From contig NZ_JAUKPO010000003.1 of NCBI RefSeq assembly GCF_030503435.1, positions 248,001-312,000 on the forward strand: a stretch of DNA of 64,000 nt, given 5' to 3'. The notes beneath the pieces are model-generated. The model saw only the letters and a list, made by a program, of their open reading frames with translations. It did not search any database and had not been told where the DNA came from. How positions within the stretch are numbered: position 1 is the first letter of the stretch; each line of letters starts with the position of its first letter. The stretch comes from Rhodocytophaga aerolata (lineage in GTDB: Bacteria; Bacteroidota; Bacteroidia; Cytophagales; 172606-1). Positions 35,076 to 45,951 of this stretch are shown here, one piece after another. The position numbers were made by a program, and so were the translations under genes.

Positions 35076-35525
35076 TTACGAGGATTTCTTCTCTTCTTCA
35101 GCCGGTGCTTGTACAGCATCTTCCTGCTTCTTCTCAAATAGATCCGGCGCATGGTTCACCAATATACCATACCAGGTTACTAATTTTTTAATATCAGACG
35201 AATATACCCGCTCCCGGTCATATTGGGGCACGATTTCTTCTATAAAACTGAAGAGATCCTCGGAGGAAGATTTTGGTTGAACCGGCAAGTCTTTACCATA
35301 TTTCTCAAAAATGGCTGCTAATACTTCTTCCAATTGAACGGAAGACTCTTTGCCAGTTGTGTAAATTGAAATTTCTTTCAATATAGAAACCCGGTATTGA
35401 GGCCCAGCCACCAGTTTGCTTTTTTGCTCATCAATTGATTCCAGAATTACACCGGAACGTGTAGGTTTTACCAATCTGAATAAGCCTCCTTTTCCAGAGA
35501 CAGTTGCTATTTCTTTTAAATCCAT
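35076..35525 (-). CDS. DUF5606 domain-containing protein
   Basis: 149-residue soluble protein of a family conserved in Bacteroidota, of unknown function. The N-terminus MDLKEIATVSGKGGLFRLVKP matches the family start. The middle has VSILKEISIYTTGKESSVQLEEVL (about 50-73) and the C-terminus is a short, acidic, Glu/Ala-rich tail (about 130-149), probably disordered. It lies 21 bases downstream of the TonB-C-like gene and probably shares its transcript. No catalytic motif is visible. Confidence 0.8.
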   Translation of the reverse strand: MDLKEIATVSGKGGLFRLVKPTRSGVILESIDEQKSKLVAGPQYRVSILKEISIYTTGKESSVQLEEVLAAIFEKYGKDLPVQPKSSSEDLFSFIEEIVPQYDRERVYSSDIKKLVTWYGILVNHAPDLFEKKQEDAVQAPAEEEKKSS

Positions 35526-35546: not shown

Positions 35547-35924
35547 TTACTTCTGTAGATCAAACCGGACAGGTATGGTGGCATCTACTCTATAACCCGG
35601 AGCTTTGAATTTAAGGCTCCGTACTATACGCATAGCCTCTTCGCCACATCCTGCACCGATATTTTTTATCAACTTTTGATTTATCATTTTCCCATTCTCT
35701 TCCAGAGTAAAAGCAACAACACACTCTCCGTGGACGCGGTTACGTTTAGCCATAGGTGGATATTGAAGATTTTTCTGTATATCAGCCAATAAAGCTTCTC
35801 TGCCACCTTCGTAGTGCTCTGCCACCGGAAGCACTCTTTCGTTGCTGCTCGCCGAGGTTTGAGCAATTGTTACGCTACTTACCAAAAGAGCAAAGAATAA
35901 TAAAAACATTAACTTGTTTCGCAT
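35547..35924 (-). CDS. TonB C-terminal-like exported protein
   Basis: 125-residue protein with a signal peptide (MRNKLMFLLFFALLVSSVTIAQ, about 1-22) followed by a TonB C-terminal fold: IQKNLQYPPMAKRNRVHGECVVAFTLEENGKMINQKLI and the conserved RIVRSLKFKAP with the YxVDATIPVRF closing strand. In true TonB an N-terminal helix anchors the protein to ExbBD; here a cleavable peptide replaces the anchor, so this is a stand-alone periplasmic protein. It may interact with TonB-dependent receptors or bind peptidoglycan; function is unknown. An internal frame on the same strand is a shadow. It has its own TAnnTTTG promoter upstream. Confidence 0.83.
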   Translation of the reverse strand: MRNKLMFLLFFALLVSSVTIAQTSASSNERVLPVAEHYEGGREALLADIQKNLQYPPMAKRNRVHGECVVAFTLEENGKMINQKLIKNIGAGCGEEAMRIVRSLKFKAPGYRVDATIPVRFDLQK

Positions 35925-36088: not shown

Positions 36089-36694
36089 TTATATCTTTTT
36101 ATAAGTTTTATTTAACGAATCAATAAACTTCAGTATTTCATCCCGCCCATCTCTTGAAACAGATGATGTTACGAAATACGAAGGAACCTCCTCCCATTGT
36201 TCAAGCATTTTTTGAATATACTGTTCTACATGAAGCTGCGTCTTGGATTTTGTTTGTTTATCTGCTTTTGTAAATATAATGCTAAAAGGTATTTCCGATT
36301 TTCCTAACCACTCCATAAACTCCAGATCAACCTTTTGTGCCTCATGCCGGGAATCTATCAATACGAATACACATAACAAATTTGTACGCTGAAGCAAATA
36401 TTGCCTGATCATCGTATCCCATTTTTCACGGTCTGCTTTACTGGCCTGAGCCCATCCATATCCGGGCAAGTCTACCAGATACCACTCATCATTTATGAGA
36501 AAATGATTGATCAACTGTGTTTTACCGGGCTTTTGTGACGTTTTAGCCAGGTTTGGGTGGCCGGTAAGCATATTTATTAATGACGATTTCCCGACGTTGG
36601 AACGGCCTATAAAAGCATATTCGGGCTTTTCTGGGGCAGGACATGCTTTATAGTCGGTATTACTCTGAATAAAAGTGGCTTGTATAATTTTCAT
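36089..36694 (-). CDS. engB: ribosome biogenesis GTP-binding protein EngB (YsxC/YihA)
   Basis: 201-residue TRAFAC GTPase required for large-subunit assembly. G1 is [14 protein letters not shown] (about 31-44), G3 is DLPGYGWA (about 75-82), G4 is TKADK (about 141-145), and G5 is SSVSRDG near 178. Length is standard. It is a single gene with a promoter element about 30 bases upstream. It has no operon partner in the window. Confidence 0.96.
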
Positions 36695-36850: not shown

Positions 36851-38884
36851 ATGAGAAATAAACTCCTATCATTCTTGCCTTTCCTTAGGCAGATTATTCT
36901 TTTTCTGCTGATCCAGAATGCTGCTGCACCACTTTTTGCTCAATCCTCAAAAAGAATATTGAAAGAAGCCGGTGAATATTTTGAAAGTGGCGATTATATA
37001 AATGCCCTGCCTATTTATCTGGAATACCTTAAAGCTGATCCGGAGCATCCCCAAGCAAATTTCAATACAGGCATCTGTTATTTGCAAACCATTCATGAAC
37101 ATAAGGCGGTGGCTTACTTACAAAAAGCCTATGCAAAAATGCCTGCTATCCATCCCGATATACATAGGTATTTGGGGGAAGCCTATCAATATAATCACCA
37201 ATTCAAAGAAGCAATAGATGCTTTTAAAGCGTATAAAGCTATAGCTGTCAAAACTCTCACAAAAGATCTAAGCCTTCTACCCATCTTAGAGAGGCGTATA
37301 TATGAATGTCAAAATGGATTAACATACCTGGATAAACCGGTAAAAGCTCAGATAGATAATATTGGTCCTATCATTAATTCTAAGTACGCCGAATATGCAC
37401 CAGTTATTTCAGCCGACGAATCTGTACTCGTATTTACCTCCCGCAGGGCAGGTTCTACCGGTGGCTTTGTAGCTATAGATGATAATCAATATTATGAGGA
37501 CATTTATATTTCTATTAAATCGAATGGCAAATGGGCTGAGCCGAAAAATATACAAGAAATTAATACAGATAAACATGATGCCTGTATAGCCTTATCGTCG
37601 GATGGTAAGCAGCTTTTTATTTACAAAGATAGCCGTGGCGGGGATATTTATGTTTCTAGGTTTGATGCGTTAAAAAATATATGGTCTAAACCGCAAAGCT
37701 TAGGTGAAACGGTAAATACTAAGTATCAGGAACCCTCTGTCTCTATGACGGCTGATGGCAATACTATTTATTTCTCCAGCAACCGCCCTGGCGGCCTGGG
37801 CGGGCTAGATATTTATATGAGCCACAAAGATGCAAAAGGCAATTGGGGAGAAGCCATAAATCTGGGGGCTCCCATCAATACACCTTACGACGACGATGCT
37901 CCGTTCATTCATCCCGATGGGCAAAATCTATACTTCAGTTCCAGAGGGCATGCCGGTATGGGCGGCTACGATATTTACCGGTGTTCCATGGAAACAAACG
38001 GAAAATGGTCGGTACCCGAAAATATTGGCTATCCTATAAATACGTCTGGAGATGACACTTACTTTGTACTCTCTGCCGATAACCGGCATGGATACTATGC
38101 CTCTGCGAAAGAAGGAGGTTTAGGAGAGAAAGATATTTATATTATCTCTATGCCAAAAAGAGAAACCCTGGCTTCAGCCACCGGAAGTGCAATTAAGATT
38201 GAGAAAAAGATAGAAATCAAAAGCCTCCCTCTGGATCAGCCAGCAATTAAACCAACAGCGGGCGCAACTACTATTTTGAGTGGATACATTACTGATGCTT
38301 TCACTAAAGAATCGTTGGAAGCAGAGATTGTGCTTGTAAATAATGAAAACAGTGAAGTTATCTCCGAACAAGTATCAGATTCTGCAGGTTTTTACAAAAC
38401 TGTTATGCTATCTGGCAAAAACTATGGCTTCTCTGTTCAGAAGGAAGGTTACCTGTTCCACTCTGAAAACTATGACATCCCGGCAAGTGAAGGCTTTCAG
38501 GAAATTACCCTTAATGTAGAGCTAAAGAAAGTAAGCGTGGGGTCCAGAATTATTCTGCGGAATATCTTTTTTGATTTCGATAAGGCCACGCTTAAAAAAG
38601 AAAGTACAGCCGAGTTAGAAAAACTCTTAAGCATTATGAATGAGGTGCCTACCCTAAAAATTGAGGTATCTGGCCACACCGATAACAAAGGAAGTGCAGA
38701 CTATAATAAGAAATTATCTGAGCGGCGGGCAAAAGCAGTTGTTGATTATCTGGTTGCCAAAGGGGTAAGTCCTGAGAGATTAGGCTATGCCGGATATGGA
38801 ATGGGACGTCCATTAGTATCTAACGACGATGAAACGGGTAGGCAATTAAACAGGAGGACAGAATTTGAGATTACAGGTAAGTAG
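36851..38884 (+). CDS. TPR, beta-propeller and OmpA-domain protein, PorE-like (copy 1)
   Basis: 677-residue exported protein. Order: signal peptide ending near PLFAQ (about 31), N-terminal TPR-like repeats (35-160), a beta-propeller built of PD40 WD40-like blades (about 190-440; EYAPVISADESVLVFTSRR, VSMTADGNTIYFSSNRPGG, PFIHPDGQNLYFSSRG), a carboxypeptidase-regulatory-like beta sandwich (475-560; LSGYITDAFTKESLEAEIVLV), then an OmpA/MotB peptidoglycan-binding domain (575-675; FFDFDKATLKKES, VSGHTDNKGS, SERRAKAVVDYL, GRPLVSNDDE). This is the architecture of PorE, an accessory component of the type IX machinery that links the outer membrane to peptidoglycan. Unlike PorE it lacks a lipobox. Followed directly by a paralogue. 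Confidence 0.88.
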   Translation: MRNKLLSFLPFLRQIILFLLIQNAAAPLFAQSSKRILKEAGEYFESGDYINALPIYLEYLKADPEHPQANFNTGICYLQTIHEHKAVAYLQKAYAKMPAIHPDIHRYLGEAYQYNHQFKEAIDAFKAYKAIAVKTLTKDLSLLPILERRIYECQNGLTYLDKPVKAQIDNIGPIINSKYAEYAPVISADESVLVFTSRRAGSTGGFVAIDDNQYYEDIYISIKSNGKWAEPKNIQEINTDKHDACIALSSDGKQLFIYKDSRGGDIYVSRFDALKNIWSKPQSLGETVNTKYQEPSVSMTADGNTIYFSSNRPGGLGGLDIYMSHKDAKGNWGEAINLGAPINTPYDDDAPFIHPDGQNLYFSSRGHAGMGGYDIYRCSMETNGKWSVPENIGYPINTSGDDTYFVLSADNRHGYYASAKEGGLGEKDIYIISMPKRETLASATGSAIKIEKKIEIKSLPLDQPAIKPTAGATTILSGYITDAFTKESLEAEIVLVNNENSEVISEQVSDSAGFYKTVMLSGKNYGFSVQKEGYLFHSENYDIPASEGFQEITLNVELKKVSVGSRIILRNIFFDFDKATLKKESTAELEKLLSIMNEVPTLKIEVSGHTDNKGSADYNKKLSERRAKAVVDYLVAKGVSPERLGYAGYGMGRPLVSNDDETGRQLNRRTEFEITGK

Positions 38885-39018
38885 AAAAAATAGTTTTTTC
38901 ACGATTTATATACATATAACATATTTAACCGGTAAATGAAACAATTACTCTTCTAAGGCTGGCTACATTGCCATAGAACTCAAATTGAAGATACTATTTC
39001 ATTTCAGGTTTGAAGATA

Positions 39019-41094
39019 ATGAAAGATTTTATAAAAATTATGTTAAACAAATACTTGTCTGTCTGGCTACTGGTCGTTACCTGTTTACTTGTAAACGTAG
39101 GAAAGGTATCCGCTCAACTAGATAACGACTTAGTAGCAGAAGCGGATGCTGCATATAATATAGGTGCTAAATCCCTTGCCCTCGACAACTATATGTTAGC
39201 CTTACGGGAAAATCCAAACAACGTAAGGGCAAACTTTATGGCTGGTAAAGCAATTATAGAAACCATTGATAAAAGCAGGGCAAGTAAGTATTTAATTAAA
39301 GCCTACGAACTGGACCCCGGTATTAGTGCAGATATTTTACTTTTGATTGGGCAATCATTTCAATATGGCAACGATTTCGACAATGCTATTGCCTATTATG
39401 AGAAGCATAAAACGAAGATCCAAGCAGATGCTGCAACTAAAAAAACAAATAAAAACACATTAAAAGCTATTCTGGCTGAGATTGATGAAAAAATAGCAAA
39501 ATGTAATAATGGTAAAAAGTACACAAGTGATCCGCTGGAATATTCTATAAAAAATCTTGGCAAAGGTGTTAATTCAGGCCATGCTGATTATGCACCGGCC
39601 ATTAATAAGGATGAATCGGTAATGATCTTCACTTCGCGCCGTGAAGGGGGCGTGGGTATTGGAAACGTAGATAAAGACTTAGAATTTTTTGAAGACATTT
39701 ATATTTCCGAATTTAAAGATGGCGAATGGCAACCTGCTCAAAACTTAGGCGCTAACATAAACACAGAATACCACGATGCAAGTATAGGTTTGTCAGGCGA
39801 TGGAAAAACGCTATTTCTCTATAAAGATGAAAATGGGGGAGATATTTATGTTTCTAATCAGCGGAAAGATGGTACATGGTCTAGCCCTGAGCCGCTTAGC
39901 TCTAACATAAATTCAACCTATAATGAAAATTCTGTTTCCATATCTCCGGATGGGCAAACCCTGTTCTTCACTAGTGACCGTCCAGGAGGCAAAGGAGGTA
40001 TAGATATTTACATGAGTAAGCTGGATAAAAATGGGAGATGGGCTAAACCAACCAATATGGGTGCTCCCATCAATACAATATCTGATGAAGACGGTCCTTT
40101 TATCGATTATGATGGCAAAACACTTTATTTCAGTTCACGCGGCCATGAAGGTATGGGTGGGTATGATATTTTTGTAAGTGAATTTGATAGTACAACCAAG
40201 AAATGGTCAGAGCCAGTTAACATTGGTTACCCGATAAATACACCGGATGAAGATATTTATTTTGTAAAATCTGGTGACCGCCGATTTGGCTATTATGCTT
40301 CTGTTAAAGATGGCGGTATGGGGGAGAAAGATATTTATAAAGTAGCTATTCCCGACAATTTGCAGAACTACGACAAGCTGAAAGTGCGGAAGATCTCAGG
40401 TAAACCGGCCCCAATCGTAAAAGTACCTGATGCATTAAATCCAGTAAAACTGGTTATTCGGATAACTGATGCCTCTGCTCAAACTCCGATAAGTGCCAGT
40501 ATCCTGTTGAAGTCTAAAACAAATGAAGCTGAAGTTAGTCTAACTAAAGTATCTGAAGGAGTGTATACGTGCACGTTTAATAATAGTGGCTCGATGGATT
40601 ATGGCATTGCCGTAGAGAAAGATGGGTATATGTACACCAATGCAGATGTATCTATCCCTGCTATATCTGCTGAAGCCAAGGAAATAGTTAAAGAAATTTC
40701 TCTTTCTAAATTGCAGATAGGTTTTAAAACCATCTTACGCAATATTTATTTTGATACAGGGAAAGCAACTCTAAAACCTGAATCATTTCAGGAATTAGAA
40801 AAATTAGAAAAAATGCTGAAAGAAAACACAAGCTATACTATAGAAATATCTGGTCATACAGATAAAATTGGTTCTGCTGAACTGAACAAAAAACTTTCTC
40901 AAAATAGGGCAAAGGCTGTAGTTAAATATCTAACTGATAAAGGTGTTGAATCAAACAGATTAATTGCAGTTGGATATGGAGAAGAAAAACCCTTAGCTTC
41001 TAATGATGATGAATTAGAAGGAAGAGAAATTAACAGAAGAACAGAGTTTGAAATCATTAGCCAGGTACAGAACCAATCGGCAGCCGTAAAATAA
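39019..41094 (+). CDS. TPR, beta-propeller and OmpA-domain protein, PorE-like (copy 2)
   Basis: 691-residue paralogue of the preceding protein with the same order of parts: signal peptide ending near GKVSAQ, TPR-like repeats (about 35-160), PD40 beta-propeller (170-445; YAPAINKDESVMIFTSRR, VSISPDGQTLFFTSDRPGG), a regulatory-like sandwich (475-580), and the OmpA domain (585-685; YFDTGKATLKPES, ISGHTDKIGS, SQNRAKAVVKYL, EEKPLASNDDE). The frame is open from a TTG at 39010, but ATG 39019 begins a standard signal peptide. It is 134 bases after copy 1, so one transcript is possible. Divergence is substantial, so the copies are not recent. Function may be cell-wall anchoring or T9SS assembly; unproven. 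Confidence 0.88.
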   Translation: MKDFIKIMLNKYLSVWLLVVTCLLVNVGKVSAQLDNDLVAEADAAYNIGAKSLALDNYMLALRENPNNVRANFMAGKAIIETIDKSRASKYLIKAYELDPGISADILLLIGQSFQYGNDFDNAIAYYEKHKTKIQADAATKKTNKNTLKAILAEIDEKIAKCNNGKKYTSDPLEYSIKNLGKGVNSGHADYAPAINKDESVMIFTSRREGGVGIGNVDKDLEFFEDIYISEFKDGEWQPAQNLGANINTEYHDASIGLSGDGKTLFLYKDENGGDIYVSNQRKDGTWSSPEPLSSNINSTYNENSVSISPDGQTLFFTSDRPGGKGGIDIYMSKLDKNGRWAKPTNMGAPINTISDEDGPFIDYDGKTLYFSSRGHEGMGGYDIFVSEFDSTTKKWSEPVNIGYPINTPDEDIYFVKSGDRRFGYYASVKDGGMGEKDIYKVAIPDNLQNYDKLKVRKISGKPAPIVKVPDALNPVKLVIRITDASAQTPISASILLKSKTNEAEVSLTKVSEGVYTCTFNNSGSMDYGIAVEKDGYMYTNADVSIPAISAEAKEIVKEISLSKLQIGFKTILRNIYFDTGKATLKPESFQELEKLEKMLKENTSYTIEISGHTDKIGSAELNKKLSQNRAKAVVKYLTDKGVESNRLIAVGYGEEKPLASNDDELEGREINRRTEFEIISQVQNQSAAVK

Positions 41095-41120: not shown

Positions 41121-41158
41121 CATAGAAAAAGCACCTTTTACAAGGTGCTTTTTCTATG
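41121..41158. terminator. terminator after OmpA copy 2
   Basis: 17-bp perfect stem (41121-41137 and 41142-41158; core GCACCTT) with a 4-base loop. The T-run lies within the right arm. Confidence 0.85.
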
Positions 41159-41527: not shown

Positions 41528-43441
41528 TTAACTTTTATTTACAAGCACAATCTGAGTTTTATCGGCTTTTGCTACCTTTTTGCGGAATTCAACCAACTCA
41601 TTATAAGATGCTGCCGGATAGGTGCCTCTGTTCATCGTAAATTTTCTGATGTATAGAATTATGCCTCTATCTACTACGATGGAAGCTGTATATTCACCAA
41701 AAGCAGATTTATAATGAATGGTTTCAGGTAAAAATTCCGGATGGAAACCCTCTGGTACATGATACCGGATAGTATCGGTATCTATATAAGAAAGTGGAAG
41801 TACAACCGCTGAACGTCTGTTTTCAGTAACAGGTGGTACATAACTGATGGCAGACAGTAAATTAGGCGTAAGAAATATTCTGCTTCCACTTTTTGAGGCA
41901 CATTTACGAATATTCAATACTACCTTTTCAGAAACTGCCGGTACACGTTCTTTCGTATGTGTGTATGTAAAAGAATTAATCTCATAACTAGGTATTTTAA
42001 TGCTCTTATACAGCATTTTCTTTTGTTCTTCCGGGCCATAGGCATAAATCATCTGGCTCAACATATCTTGCTGTTGTCCGGTATAAACACTGGTTATTTC
42101 AGCGGTGGCATCTCCATGAGCCGCAATAACTACTTCTGCTTTTCTGTGCTGCAAATTATCTTTAGCTGTATAAGAAGGCGTTTTTACGAGCTTTCCCCCT
42201 TCTGAAGTGATAAGTAATGCATGCCGGTTACCAGTAAATCCTCCCATATAGCCAAATGGTTTCGTCTGGTCGGTACATTCCAGCCAAATAGTATCTTTCT
42301 GCACCGGAACACATAGAATTACATGGTTAAATTGCATAGTCGGAAAATCGGTTGCAATATCCTGCTCATCATCTCCGGCTTTAATAAGAGCAAAATAAGA
42401 TTCTACCCCTACACTTTTAAGCATGGCTTTGGTATAATTAGAAAGGGCTTTACAATCGCCATATCCTTTGTCTGCCACTAAGGACGCTTCAAAAGATTGC
42501 CAGCCCCCTATCCCAAGCTGTATACTAACATATCTGGTATTTGCTTGCAGGTATTCATATATCTTTTTTACCTTTTTCGCTTTATCAGTTTCTCTGGCTG
42601 TCAGTTGCTGTAATTTTTGCTTCACGCTTTCAGGTAATACATCGCGGCCTTCATTTAATTTATGTTGCCATTTGCCTAATTCTTGCCAGCTACTCATGTT
42701 GCCCTGATATCCTTCCACTTCAAAGTCTGTAGGTGCCGTATATACAATAGGCAGCAATGTAGTTGCCGGCGCCGATAAGGGCTCTACTTCAAATACTGGA
42801 AGATTAGCTATTTGCCAAGTATATATGGTGTTGTTTTCTACTGAAGAAAGGCTCACTTTCTGATTAATATTTACTTCTTTATACCGGAGTTTCAAATTTT
42901 TCGGCATTATCACCGTAAACATAGATTGTTCTACTGCATAGTGCTCTGCCCCCTGAGGCGTCCACACCGGATAAAACAGGGTATTTTTGCTGGTAGTTTC
43001 GTATTCAAATTCTACGGTATAAGGATATTCAGAATACGAAAAAGCGGCTATCTTCATGCGGTTATCCTCAAAGAGGGAATTATCTGAAACTGCACTTACG
43101 TCTTGTGTATCAGCTTTTTTAAGTTTACTTACTAACTTACCCTGTGCATCATATACAGAACCTTGCAGATTGTTTACTTTTACTAATTTATCGTACCCAA
43201 CGTAGGCTTTGGCATATTTCTTTCCTTTTTCATTTAATATAGTAATTGCATAACGGGTTTTCTTGGTAGCTTCACCAGGAGATTTTACCGTAAAAGTGAT
43301 TTCTTCCATACGCTGCACAGCATAAGCATTTTCTAATAGTTTAGCTGGAATACTACTTACAGCATAGTTTCCATCTCCCGCCATAACCCGGAAATAACTG
43401 CACACAAATAGCAGAAGAGAAACAGATTTAATGTTGAACAT
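41528..43441 (-). CDS. DUF3857/transglutaminase-like protein (copy A)
   Basis: 637-residue exported protein. After a signal peptide (about 1-22) comes a DUF3857 beta-rich domain (30-260; TRYAITILNEKGKKYAKAYVGYD). A transglutaminase-like papain-fold domain follows (about 285-430), with catalytic Cys in YGDCKALSNYTKAML, His in FNHVILCV and Asp in LECTDQTKPFGY. A C-terminal beta domain resembles DUF3858 (440-630). Such proteins are common in Bacteroidota; function is unknown. The Cys-His-Asp triad is intact, so cross-linking or proteolytic activity is possible. The open frame begins at an ATG 42 bases upstream (43483), but the ATG at 43441 starts the signal peptide. Downstream of a paralogue on the same strand. 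Confidence 0.83.
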   Translation of the reverse strand: MFNIKSVSLLLFVCSYFRVMAGDGNYAVSSIPAKLLENAYAVQRMEEITFTVKSPGEATKKTRYAITILNEKGKKYAKAYVGYDKLVKVNNLQGSVYDAQGKLVSKLKKADTQDVSAVSDNSLFEDNRMKIAAFSYSEYPYTVEFEYETTSKNTLFYPVWTPQGAEHYAVEQSMFTVIMPKNLKLRYKEVNINQKVSLSSVENNTIYTWQIANLPVFEVEPLSAPATTLLPIVYTAPTDFEVEGYQGNMSSWQELGKWQHKLNEGRDVLPESVKQKLQQLTARETDKAKKVKKIYEYLQANTRYVSIQLGIGGWQSFEASLVADKGYGDCKALSNYTKAMLKSVGVESYFALIKAGDDEQDIATDFPTMQFNHVILCVPVQKDTIWLECTDQTKPFGYMGGFTGNRHALLITSEGGKLVKTPSYTAKDNLQHRKAEVVIAAHGDATAEITSVYTGQQQDMLSQMIYAYGPEEQKKMLYKSIKIPSYEINSFTYTHTKERVPAVSEKVVLNIRKCASKSGSRIFLTPNLLSAISYVPPVTENRRSAVVLPLSYIDTDTIRYHVPEGFHPEFLPETIHYKSAFGEYTASIVVDRGIILYIRKFTMNRGTYPAASYNELVEFRKKVAKADKTQIVLVNKS

Positions 43442-43485
43442 AGAATGATAAAAATTAGTAGGAAGTGAAACTATTATACACATTA

Positions 43486-43536
43486 GTATCGCTGCCCAAA
43501 TAAGTTAAGTTTTTTTACCTATCTGGGCAGCGATAC
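43486..43536 (-). terminator. hairpin between the two DUF3857 genes
   Basis: 13-bp perfect inverted repeat (GTATCGCTGCCCA at 43486-43498, TGGGCAGCGATAC at 43524-43536) with a 25-base loop containing a T-run. It lies just after the stop of copy B, but no T tract follows the stem, so it is an atypical terminator or an intercistronic stabiliser. Confidence 0.45.
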
Positions 43537-43552
43537 GATGACATACGGATTA

Positions 43553-45562
43553 TTAAATTTTAGATTTTTTTATCACAATCTGCTCTGCATGTTTGGCCAC
43601 AACCTGATTGAAGAACTCTTTCAGAAAAGGATACTCTTCCGAATAATATACAGGCTTTTTTAAAGTAATTCTGCTGGTAATCTGGATAGTGTTGCCATTC
43701 ACAGCTACCATATAAGTAAAGCGTCCTGTCTTTTCCGGCAAATCCAGAATAGCACCTTTTGGCATTTCTTCTACTTTGTATCCTTCAGGAATAGTAAATG
43801 TACAAGCATATGTTTCATCCACTGAATAAGCAAAATCTACAGGAAATAACCTATTTTCCAGTTTAAAAGGATTAGCGTTTCTGGCTTCGCTAAGCATAGG
43901 CTTCAGGTATATCATATCTCCGGCTACTTGTGCAAAATCAGATAGGGTAACTTCATATTTTGCATTCACTGTTTTATCAATCTCCTCAACATCTGTGAAA
44001 CTATGGGCGGTAATTTGCCATTCAGGATGTTCTTTTTTAACAGTTTCTATATATTTGTCTTTCCCTTCAGAGAAAATCTTTTTACGCATAGCCAGAGCGC
44101 TGTATCCGCCATCCGAGACATCTATATTTCCTTTCAAGTCCCCTTCCGGTGAAACATTTAATCTGGCAACAAATACGTGCGCTAGTTTTTCTATTGGTTG
44201 AAGTGATACCCAATGAGGATTTTTCTCTGATACCAACCATCCTTCCCCATTCAGACATCTGGCAGGCAGCATACCTGGCTTTATTACCGGGTCGGTTGCA
44301 TCTAATAGAAACTCATTTCCATTGATATTTACATGTGCTATTACATAATTAAATTTTGTAATTAAAGCATATGTCTCGAGCACTCTTCCATGATCACGGG
44401 TACTTAAAATTACAGGATTGGCCTCTATACCTACTTCTTTTAAAAAAGCCACCAGCATAAGATTAATATCGGCTGAGCTACCGCTATGTGTTTCATAAGC
44501 TTTCTTTAAACCAGACGTATATTTTTGCTTTACCTCATTCCATTTTACCTGTTTTCTCACAAAATTATACACAGCAGTTGTCCGTTGTACCGGATCTGTA
44601 TATTTTAAGGAAATAGCCGCTAACTCATCTTTTGCAAAGCCGGTTCTTTTTAATGGCAGGCCAAAACTTTCTCCCTCCAATAAACTCTTTGTTAAGGCTT
44701 GCCAGGTATTATTAATTGGTTGTATCATTTGCCCAGGCAGTTTAACAGTCGCCAACTCAAAATTGATTTTGGTCACATAATCATTAATAGTTGTCATGTA
44801 GGGCTCTTCACGAAGCGCAGGCATGTCTTTGGCTACCCAGCGGTAAACAGTAGCTTGCGGAGTTAACGGATTCGGATCTCCATTAAATCTGTTGATACGT
44901 TCGGTTACCGTTTTTACTTCCGTAGAGAATGACTCATAGCCTTGCGATAACTTTTTATAGTCGAAATATTCGAGCATGGTAGCACGGTACTCACTCCATA
45001 CAACAGGGATACTTTCTTGAAATTGCCACTCTCTAAATGTAAAAGGGAAATCAGACTTAATTGTATAACTGAACTCTATTACAGAGCCTTCTTTCACATT
45101 GGGCATTGTAAACTTCTTAATTACCCAGTTGTCACTTACCTGCTCATCAAAAATAGCTTCTTTGGTTAACTTGTCTTTTATAATTTCTTTGCCATTAAGA
45201 TTATATGTGTATCCTTTTAAATTTAACACTTCTTCTTCTTGGCTATTACTCACACGGTAGAATGGAATTTGTACGTTTGCCCAGTCGTACCCTGCTTTTT
45301 TCAGAATTTTTAAACGTACCTGTCTTTCAAAATACACCTGGAATCCATCATGGTCTGAATACTTGAAATAAGATTTACCAAAATCGCATAAAATTACTGC
45401 ATGCGCACTGGTATCTTTAGCATAGGTGCTCATCTGCAATTCTGGCAATTCTACTTTACCAAATTTTATGGGATCTGCCTGGCCGAAAGCCGATAAGGTA
45501 AGAAAAGAGAGAGAAACTGAAATGATGACTCTGGAAAATGTCTCCAGAAAAAGATGTTTCAT
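43553..45562 (-). CDS. DUF3857/transglutaminase-like protein (copy B)
   Basis: 669-residue paralogue of the neighbouring protein. After a signal peptide (ending at SAFGQ, about 28) it has DUF3857 (about 45-290; YFERQVRLKILKKAGYDWANVQIP), then a transglutaminase-like domain (310-430; Ser replaces Cys at the usual nucleophile position: HSGSSADINLMLVAFLKEVGIEANP, where copy A has YGDCKAL), and a C-terminal beta domain (450-665). HVNINGNEFLLDATDP keeps the Asp region. The absent Cys suggests a non-catalytic, structural or binding protein. The frame is open from an ATG 21 bases upstream, but 45562 gives the cleaner signal peptide. Upstream of copy A in the same direction. Confidence 0.82.
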   Translation of the reverse strand: MKHLFLETFSRVIISVSLSFLTLSAFGQADPIKFGKVELPELQMSTYAKDTSAHAVILCDFGKSYFKYSDHDGFQVYFERQVRLKILKKAGYDWANVQIPFYRVSNSQEEEVLNLKGYTYNLNGKEIIKDKLTKEAIFDEQVSDNWVIKKFTMPNVKEGSVIEFSYTIKSDFPFTFREWQFQESIPVVWSEYRATMLEYFDYKKLSQGYESFSTEVKTVTERINRFNGDPNPLTPQATVYRWVAKDMPALREEPYMTTINDYVTKINFELATVKLPGQMIQPINNTWQALTKSLLEGESFGLPLKRTGFAKDELAAISLKYTDPVQRTTAVYNFVRKQVKWNEVKQKYTSGLKKAYETHSGSSADINLMLVAFLKEVGIEANPVILSTRDHGRVLETYALITKFNYVIAHVNINGNEFLLDATDPVIKPGMLPARCLNGEGWLVSEKNPHWVSLQPIEKLAHVFVARLNVSPEGDLKGNIDVSDGGYSALAMRKKIFSEGKDKYIETVKKEHPEWQITAHSFTDVEEIDKTVNAKYEVTLSDFAQVAGDMIYLKPMLSEARNANPFKLENRLFPVDFAYSVDETYACTFTIPEGYKVEEMPKGAILDLPEKTGRFTYMVAVNGNTIQITSRITLKKPVYYSEEYPFLKEFFNQVVAKHAEQIVIKKSKI

Positions 45563-45951
45563 GGGGTTAAAAGTTTTGACCATAAAATATTTGTTTTTTC
45601 TGAATACTTGTTCACTCTCTTCTGTAACTCATGTATAGATTTGCTCAGATTATGAAAGTTTATTCTCCTTTTTTACTCAAAAACTCTCATCAGTTTGGCT
45701 CTGATAGTATCTTACTAAGCAGGTATAGACTTTATTTCAATTTCCTGTATCAGCCTTACTTGATTACTGGCTAACCCTAACTATGTTCTCTGCTACCAAG
45801 TATATAATGGTAGTTATGTAAGAATAATGCCCCTTTTCCATAAACTATTATTACCCATATTTGCATTTTATTGTAAATTATTCAACCCAATTACTGGTCG
45901 ACAAATTCAGGGGAATCGAACTCAAAAATGTGCCAGTGTGTATCTTACAAT
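45563..45951. other. divergent intergenic region upstream of the WG-repeat gene
   Basis: About 390 bases between divergent 5' ends. A plus-strand TAGATTTG at 45636-45643 matches the -7 consensus but is about 310 bases from the ATG at 45952, so it would mean a long leader. No gene is supported. Confidence 0.4.

Follow-up and report, generated by a model that had tools for sequence, protein, structure and literature searches.

The closest described counterparts of the genes considered here are PorE (PG1058; NF052230), a lipoprotein of the type IX secretion system (T9SS) of Porphyromonas gingivalis, the CHU_0125 family (NF053607), a Pal-like lipoprotein of Cytophaga hutchinsonii, and the TolB and Pal proteins of Proteobacteria. 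PorE binds PorP, and in Flavobacterium johnsoniae six porP-like genes adjoin porE-like genes (PMC9143113). The OmpA domain of PorE carries a helical insert, and its ligand contacts include Asp576, Lys578, Tyr583, Asn584 and Arg591 (PMC7192894). It has also been proposed that PorE is a tether formed by fusion of CpoB, TolB and Pal, which a TonB-like protein might drive via the CP domain (PMC12204202). We analyzed a 64,000-nucleotide stretch of the Rhodocytophaga aerolata genome (contig NZ_JAUKPO010000003.1, positions 248,001–312,000; hereafter the window), in which two adjacent genes, designated A and B, encode proteins with the domain order of PorE. We consider it reasonably probable that these proteins are peptidoglycan-bound scaffolds that resemble TolB-Pal, lack a lipid and have different partners, and that they are not PorE.

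Gene A (36851..38884, 677 aa) and gene B (39019..41094, 691 aa from the ATG at 39019) were identified by open reading frame (ORF), Pfam, NCBIfam and AlphaFold2 analyses. They are neighboring plus-strand ORFs located where the earlier note had placed them, 134 bp apart. Translation of B could start at a TTG at 39010 or at the ATG at 39019, the latter being more likely. In A, a signal peptide (36851..36940) is followed by a tetratricopeptide repeat (TPR) region (aa 32–163, 36944..37339), a PD40 beta-propeller (aa 165–435, 37343..38155), a carboxypeptidase-regulatory-like sandwich domain (CRD; aa 470–562, 38258..38536) and an OmpA domain (aa 565–677, 38543..38881). B has the same order, with a signal peptide (39019..39114), a TPR region (aa 34–170, 39118..39528), a PD40 beta-propeller (aa 176–445, 39544..40353), an all-beta sandwich (aa 475–565, 40441..40713) and an OmpA domain (aa 570–682, 40726..41064), all on the plus strand. 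Pfam matches were strong for PD40 (E-values 1.1e-30 in A and 1.1e-21 in B) and OmpA (4.7e-23 and 1.2e-24). The best TPR match was moderate in A (8.5e-8; the limits of the region were set by us from Pfam and the model) and marginal in B (9.8e-4), whose region is helical in the model. Both sandwiches were placed from the models. When the sandwich was searched alone, CarboxypepD_reg had E-values of 5.7e-5 (A) and 0.04 (B), neither of which reached the Pfam cut-off; for B, a different match ranked first and no Pfam family was significant.

AlphaFold2 models built from 28-row alignments had mean predicted local distance difference test (pLDDT) values of 81.6 (A) and 83.0 (B), and domain packing in them is unsure because the predicted template modeling (pTM) scores were only 0.57 and 0.60. 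In both, the N-terminus is helical and is followed by a long all-beta stretch, another beta domain and an OmpA-like end. The top Foldseek matches of both models were TolB chains and OmpA/Pal domains, including the PorE structure 6top; TolB was among the top matches of A and was the top match of B. The TolB matches presumably fall on the propeller. Pfam, the models and Foldseek agree in assigning the PorE-type TPR-propeller-CRD-OmpA architecture to both genes, as the earlier note had claimed, although the sequence evidence for TPR and CRD is weak in B.

Neither protein has a convincing counterpart of the lipobox or lipoprotein signal of the PorE and CHU_0125 families. Read by eye, the signal peptide of A is of the signal peptidase I type (PLFA|QSS) and has no Cys, and the only Cys in that of B (KVSA|QLD) lies inside its hydrophobic core, VVTCLLVN, and does not form part of a lipobox. 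When a lipid anchor was scored by a rule of our own, which requires a Cys where the signal ends and is looser than the strict pattern described below, it was assigned to 9 of 9 PorE and 10 of 10 CHU_0125-type proteins and to 2 of 77 A/B-type proteins. The two flagged rows were B of the window, in which more of the hydrophobic core and then a VSA|Q site come after the Cys, and L196, whose signal continues to LLAQS. The strict lipobox pattern was present in 5 of 9 PorE, 7 of 10 CHU_0125 and 2 of 75 A/B-type proteins (L152_9099 and L210), and the ORF start of L152_9099 was probably called too early. The looser rule was mis-centered on a few rows, and every early Cys of the 77 A/B-type rows was re-inspected by eye: 22 proteins lacked Cys up to residue 75, and no convincing lipobox was seen in the remaining rows with an early Cys, apart from L210. 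Judged from these sequences, the ordinary signal peptide noted earlier for the pair is a trait of the lineage, with one ambiguous row. No previous description of this unlipidated lineage was found in the excerpts of PMC9143113, PMC12618676 and PMC5891637 available to us, its absence from print being unproven.

Family scores also placed A and B outside the described groups. The best NCBIfam model for both was CHU_0125, which matched each in a single stretch across nearly the whole protein, with 357.7 bits for A and 311.6 bits for B against a cut-off of 620; the PorE model gave 322.9 and 279.8 bits against a cut-off of 600. As a control, all 10 PorE anchors scanned exceeded the PorE cut-off (651–1037 bits). 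These anchors scored 287–431 bits on the CHU_0125 model, and therefore A and B are about as distant from CHU_0125 as PorE is. The CHU_0125 model exceeded its cut-off in 24 of the 29 genomes searched, R. aerolata included.

Phylogenetic analyses, the check proposed in the earlier note, proved useful: PorE, CHU_0125-type and A/B-type proteins formed separate groups both in a quick tree of 87 rows and in a careful tree of 38 rows chosen by us. For the 87-row tree, 13 names were listed for removal as truncated, extra-domain, near-duplicate or long-branch sequences, one of which was not in the set, and the CHU_0125 rows L221, L224 and L227 were absent. Approximately unbiased (AU) tests rejected a clade of A/B-type proteins with PorE (p = 0.00055) or with CHU_0125 (p = 0.0011), as well as PorE with A-type proteins (p = 1.4e-83). 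The two comparisons with PorE carried out the refutation test that the earlier note had set. CHU_0125-type proteins have TPR, PD40 and OmpA domains in common with A and B, but they carry the lipoprotein-type Cys (10 of 10) and score above 620 bits, neither of which holds for A or B, and the tree sets them apart.

The OmpA domains retain the main peptidoglycan-contact residues of PorE. Aligned by eye, A has all five of the PorE contacts listed above (D611, K613, Y618, N619 and R626) and B has the Asp, Asn and Arg (D615, N623 and R630); the Asp and Arg that contact diaminopimelate in OmpA-like peptidoglycan-binding proteins are present in both. The PorE-type insert is absent from A and B: the distance between the GYG and NRR-TE motifs is 46 in all six PorE proteins measured, 19 in A and 20 in B, and it is also 20 in the measurable three of four CHU_0125-type proteins. 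In summary, PorE has the same four-domain order and main peptidoglycan-contact residues as A and B, but it is lipidated, has the helical OmpA insert and binds PorP according to the cited papers, whereas for A and B no lipobox, insert or PorP-like neighbor was found.

Identification of A or B as PorE was rejected on score, tree, lipobox and OmpA insert, and we regard it as very improbable that either or both serve as the PorE of this organism, anchoring the PorK/N ring of the T9SS to the wall. Such a role would agree with the domain order, with 6top being the best natural PDB match of A (ranked behind an engineered TPR chain) and with the adjacency of B-clade genes to ubiE-porT in relatives, but, in addition to the evidence above, 6top ranks under other OmpA domains for B, no PorP-like ORF was found nearby, and the genome encodes two better candidates. 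The tie to the T9SS trans-envelope complex suggested by the earlier note was not borne out. In R. aerolata, gldL (C33:206343) and a PorP-family gene (C33:208568) are on a different contig from A and B. A blastp search of 1275 ORFs (threshold 1e-5, three own PorP queries), in which divergent PorP proteins could be missed, detected no PorP-like ORF in the window or in 60 A/B-search loci; its only matches were a PorP-OmpA fusion in L115 and a hit in L249, a PorT locus lacking A/B genes. The pairing of porP-like and porE-like genes known from F. johnsoniae was therefore not seen at A/B loci.

Further proteins with a PorE-like build are encoded in the R. aerolata genome. One of them (C136:169138-171078, 646 aa) has a lipobox and scores 880 bits on the CHU_0125 model, against the cut-off of 620. 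Among eight own proteins, A and B included, it was the best match for all 25 PorE proteins tested; these were taken from 80 PorE loci and include the 10 anchors scanned above. One of the 25, L086, is titled Paenibacillus and is probably a mislabelled metagenome-assembled genome. By sequence, this protein is the candidate PorE of the genome, and its family score and lipobox suggest that it would fill the lipidated role. By position, PorE could instead be C129:54137-56062 (L110), a 641-aa PorE-like paralogue without a lipobox. It follows a QueE-like gene, whose best model match is under its cut-off, and porE follows a queE-type gene in all three Porphyromonas loci among the 80; a clade of PorE with this long-branched paralogue was rejected by the AU test (p = 0.0018). 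Neither candidate is A or B. A third paralogue without a lipobox (C136:118112-120085, 657 aa; L111, L193) lies about 8.4 kb from PorT, and the distance between PorT and the CHU_0125-type gene is about 9.4 kb in genome G002. Other OmpA proteins were observed in the R. aerolata genome (G000): a 535-aa protein (L115 3862-5469, C11) that joins a PorP-family barrel to an OmpA domain and scores 155 bits on the PorP model, above its cut-off, and an 834-aa protein (L117 5795-8296, C191) that ends in an OmpA domain and includes a PorG-like region scoring 71 bits, less than the cut-off.

Gene position in relatives is the sole link of A and B to the T9SS. In six families of the order (f6, f8, f9, f15, f16 and f19), a B-clade gene occupies the position between engB and ubiE. 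PorT is a T9SS protein, and its gene adjoins ubiE at these loci, the exception being G025, in which both contigs stop at that point; of the porT genes at these loci, the four that were scanned exceeded the PorT/SprT cut-off. In the 87-row tree, 12 of 21 B-clade rows had ubiE or porT no more than three ORFs away. An A-like gene of any clade was found within 5 kb of PorT in at least 15 of the 61 genomes that have both, from seven families (chance, about 0.33), and PorT was present in 61 of 62 genomes with an A-like gene among the matches listed. These data could indicate that B is a T9SS accessory factor that acts with PorT, the locus being common to its clade, but we consider this unlikely. We inspected a control set of 20 PorT loci, mostly from genomes without a linked A-like gene; two of them (L236 and L253) turned out to hold a distant A-like gene. 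Without any A/B gene, engB adjoined ubiE-porT in L244 and porT in L238 and L246, and was near in L239. As engB and porT can share a locus regardless of A or B, the linkage is weak evidence for a T9SS role and does not prove one, and the gene may be carried along within an old housekeeping cluster. In R. aerolata itself, ubiE-porT is found at C136:128 kb, 156 kb off, while engB, A and B stay together. In addition, the T9SS seems not to need an A-like gene because 31 of 92 PorT genomes have none among the matches listed.

The two copies are old and, as the earlier note had observed, diverged. They share 44–47% identity (47% across residues 16–675 of A, E-value 9.6e-164), and a single clade of A and B from the family of R. 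aerolata was rejected by the AU test (p = 0.0004), which rules out a recent duplication. In the 87-row tree, the A clade reaches families f3, f8, f15 and f20 and the B clade f6, f8, f9, f15, f16, f17, f19 and f20; since each extends to other families, the duplication is older than the family of R. aerolata. Within this family, A and B orthologues are adjacent in seven of eight genomes examined, the window included. The pair is intact in G000, G001, G002, G003 and G005; in G004, B is read as two ORFs (L155 3495-5574), representing a broken gene or a sequencing error in a draft genome; G007 has A/B fragments on short contigs, and the pair was not found in G006, a 690-contig assembly. In a phylum-wide search, in which seven candidates were scored in each genome among those listed, B had matches at an E-value of 1e-90 in at least 4 of 148 genomes, all from the same order. 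At this candidate depth, the A/B lineage appears so far to be limited to this order. In another match search, up to 12 candidates were scored per genome, and the counts derived from it are lower bounds. In a separate observation, six A/B-type ORFs occur in a row beside engB in L157 (4706-16474, G009:C22), the last three being shorter (559, 552 and 375 aa).

Based on these data, A and B appear to be two old paralogues of an unlipidated lineage within the PorE/CHU_0125 superfamily, combining TPR, a TolB-like propeller, a sandwich and a Pal-like OmpA domain. They would be exported by Sec, cleaved by signal peptidase I and retained in the periplasm, where the conserved contact residues suggest that the OmpA domain holds peptidoglycan. 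Without lipid, they could reach the outer membrane only through a protein bound there, presumably via the TPR and propeller, and would thus serve outer-membrane partners as scaffolds or tethers bound to the wall. By analogy, they would be unlipidated cousins of the proposed PorE tether. Identity between A and B is lowest in the TPR and sandwich (29% each) and higher in the propeller (54%) and OmpA domain (60%). Because the duplication predates the family and the TPR and sandwich differ most, A and B probably have different partners, a suggestion of the earlier note that we still infer, helped by the age of the pair and these low identities.

Several observations weigh against this reading. Within the family, TPR identity is itself 50% among A and 65% among B proteins, the corresponding sandwich values are 64% and 40%, and only two positions cleanly separate 6 A from 10 B proteins; because the TPR and sandwich vary within each copy and so few positions separate them, divergence need not mean new partners. 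By eye, B departs from PorE at the ligand-touching side chains F541 (Thr in B) and Y583 (Leu), as well as at K578, and as a result its peptidoglycan binding may differ from that of PorE. L210, in which LIAC is followed by AQAQ, is truly ambiguous and possibly has a lipobox. Finally, the trees were built with LG+G4 without a mixture model, and some of the own paralogues have long branches.

As an alternative to scaffolds with different partners, A and B may be redundant general stabilizers of the outer membrane, substituting for Tol-Pal and kept for dosage. TolB and Pal/OmpA folds, which supplied the top Foldseek structures, are among the top matches of each chain; the fusion-tether proposal for PorE (PMC12204202) would be in line with this idea, as would the sixfold increase in vesicles upon loss of CHU_0125 (PMC5891637). 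We find it rather doubtful. Compared with TolB and Pal, A and B are each one chain and not two proteins, have an additional TPR and sandwich and have no lipid, and the Rossmann domain of TolB (PMC12204202) is not evident in their models. Without lipid, A and B alone are not Pal-like tethers, and the persistence of both clades after a duplication older than the family argues against pure redundancy.

The neighborhood of the pair was also analyzed. The genes for a DUF5606/DUF6852 protein (35076..35525), a secreted protein with a stand-alone TonB C-terminal domain (35547..35924) and engB/ysxC (36089..36694) are arranged in this order on the minus strand, divergent from A and B. The DUF5606 gene is a conserved neighbor, engB is conserved across families, and the TonB_C gene occurs in part of the order, being present in 12 of the 23 further loci in which engB accompanies an A/B-type gene (counted by eye). 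The secreted product of 35547-35924 contains little besides the TonB C-terminal domain. It offers a speculative link, by analogy, to a TonB-like drive. A and B might then make up, as its two subunits, a Tol-Pal-like system of this order that is soluble and lacks lipid, in which this protein docks on the sandwiches and couples an outer-membrane partner to the wall; we see only a slight chance that this is so. Downstream of the pair, two adjoining DUF3857/transglutaminase-like proteins are encoded at 41528-45583. The earlier note described the pair as being beside envelope genes, which holds in the window for TonB_C and the two DUF3857/transglutaminase genes; in the loci of relatives, the downstream genes had no matches and only the tonB_C-engB side was matched. 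A 17-bp perfect hairpin with A/T tracts, read by eye 3' of B (41121..41158, no strand assigned), is probably the terminator of the A-B unit, and it is absent from the terminator scan list; promoter and terminator scans gave chance level only. Within positions 28000-52000, no match attained the gathering score of its Rfam family.

PorE-like genes are multi-copy and easily taken for parts of the T9SS, and the present case warns against applying the PorE label. In it, the lipidated PorE/CHU_0125 proteins are deeply separated from an unlipidated lineage that was found here in one order only and has retained an old tandem pair. The pair offers a way to ask whether such proteins serve secretion or outer-membrane stability, the same question that PMC12204202 raises for PorE.

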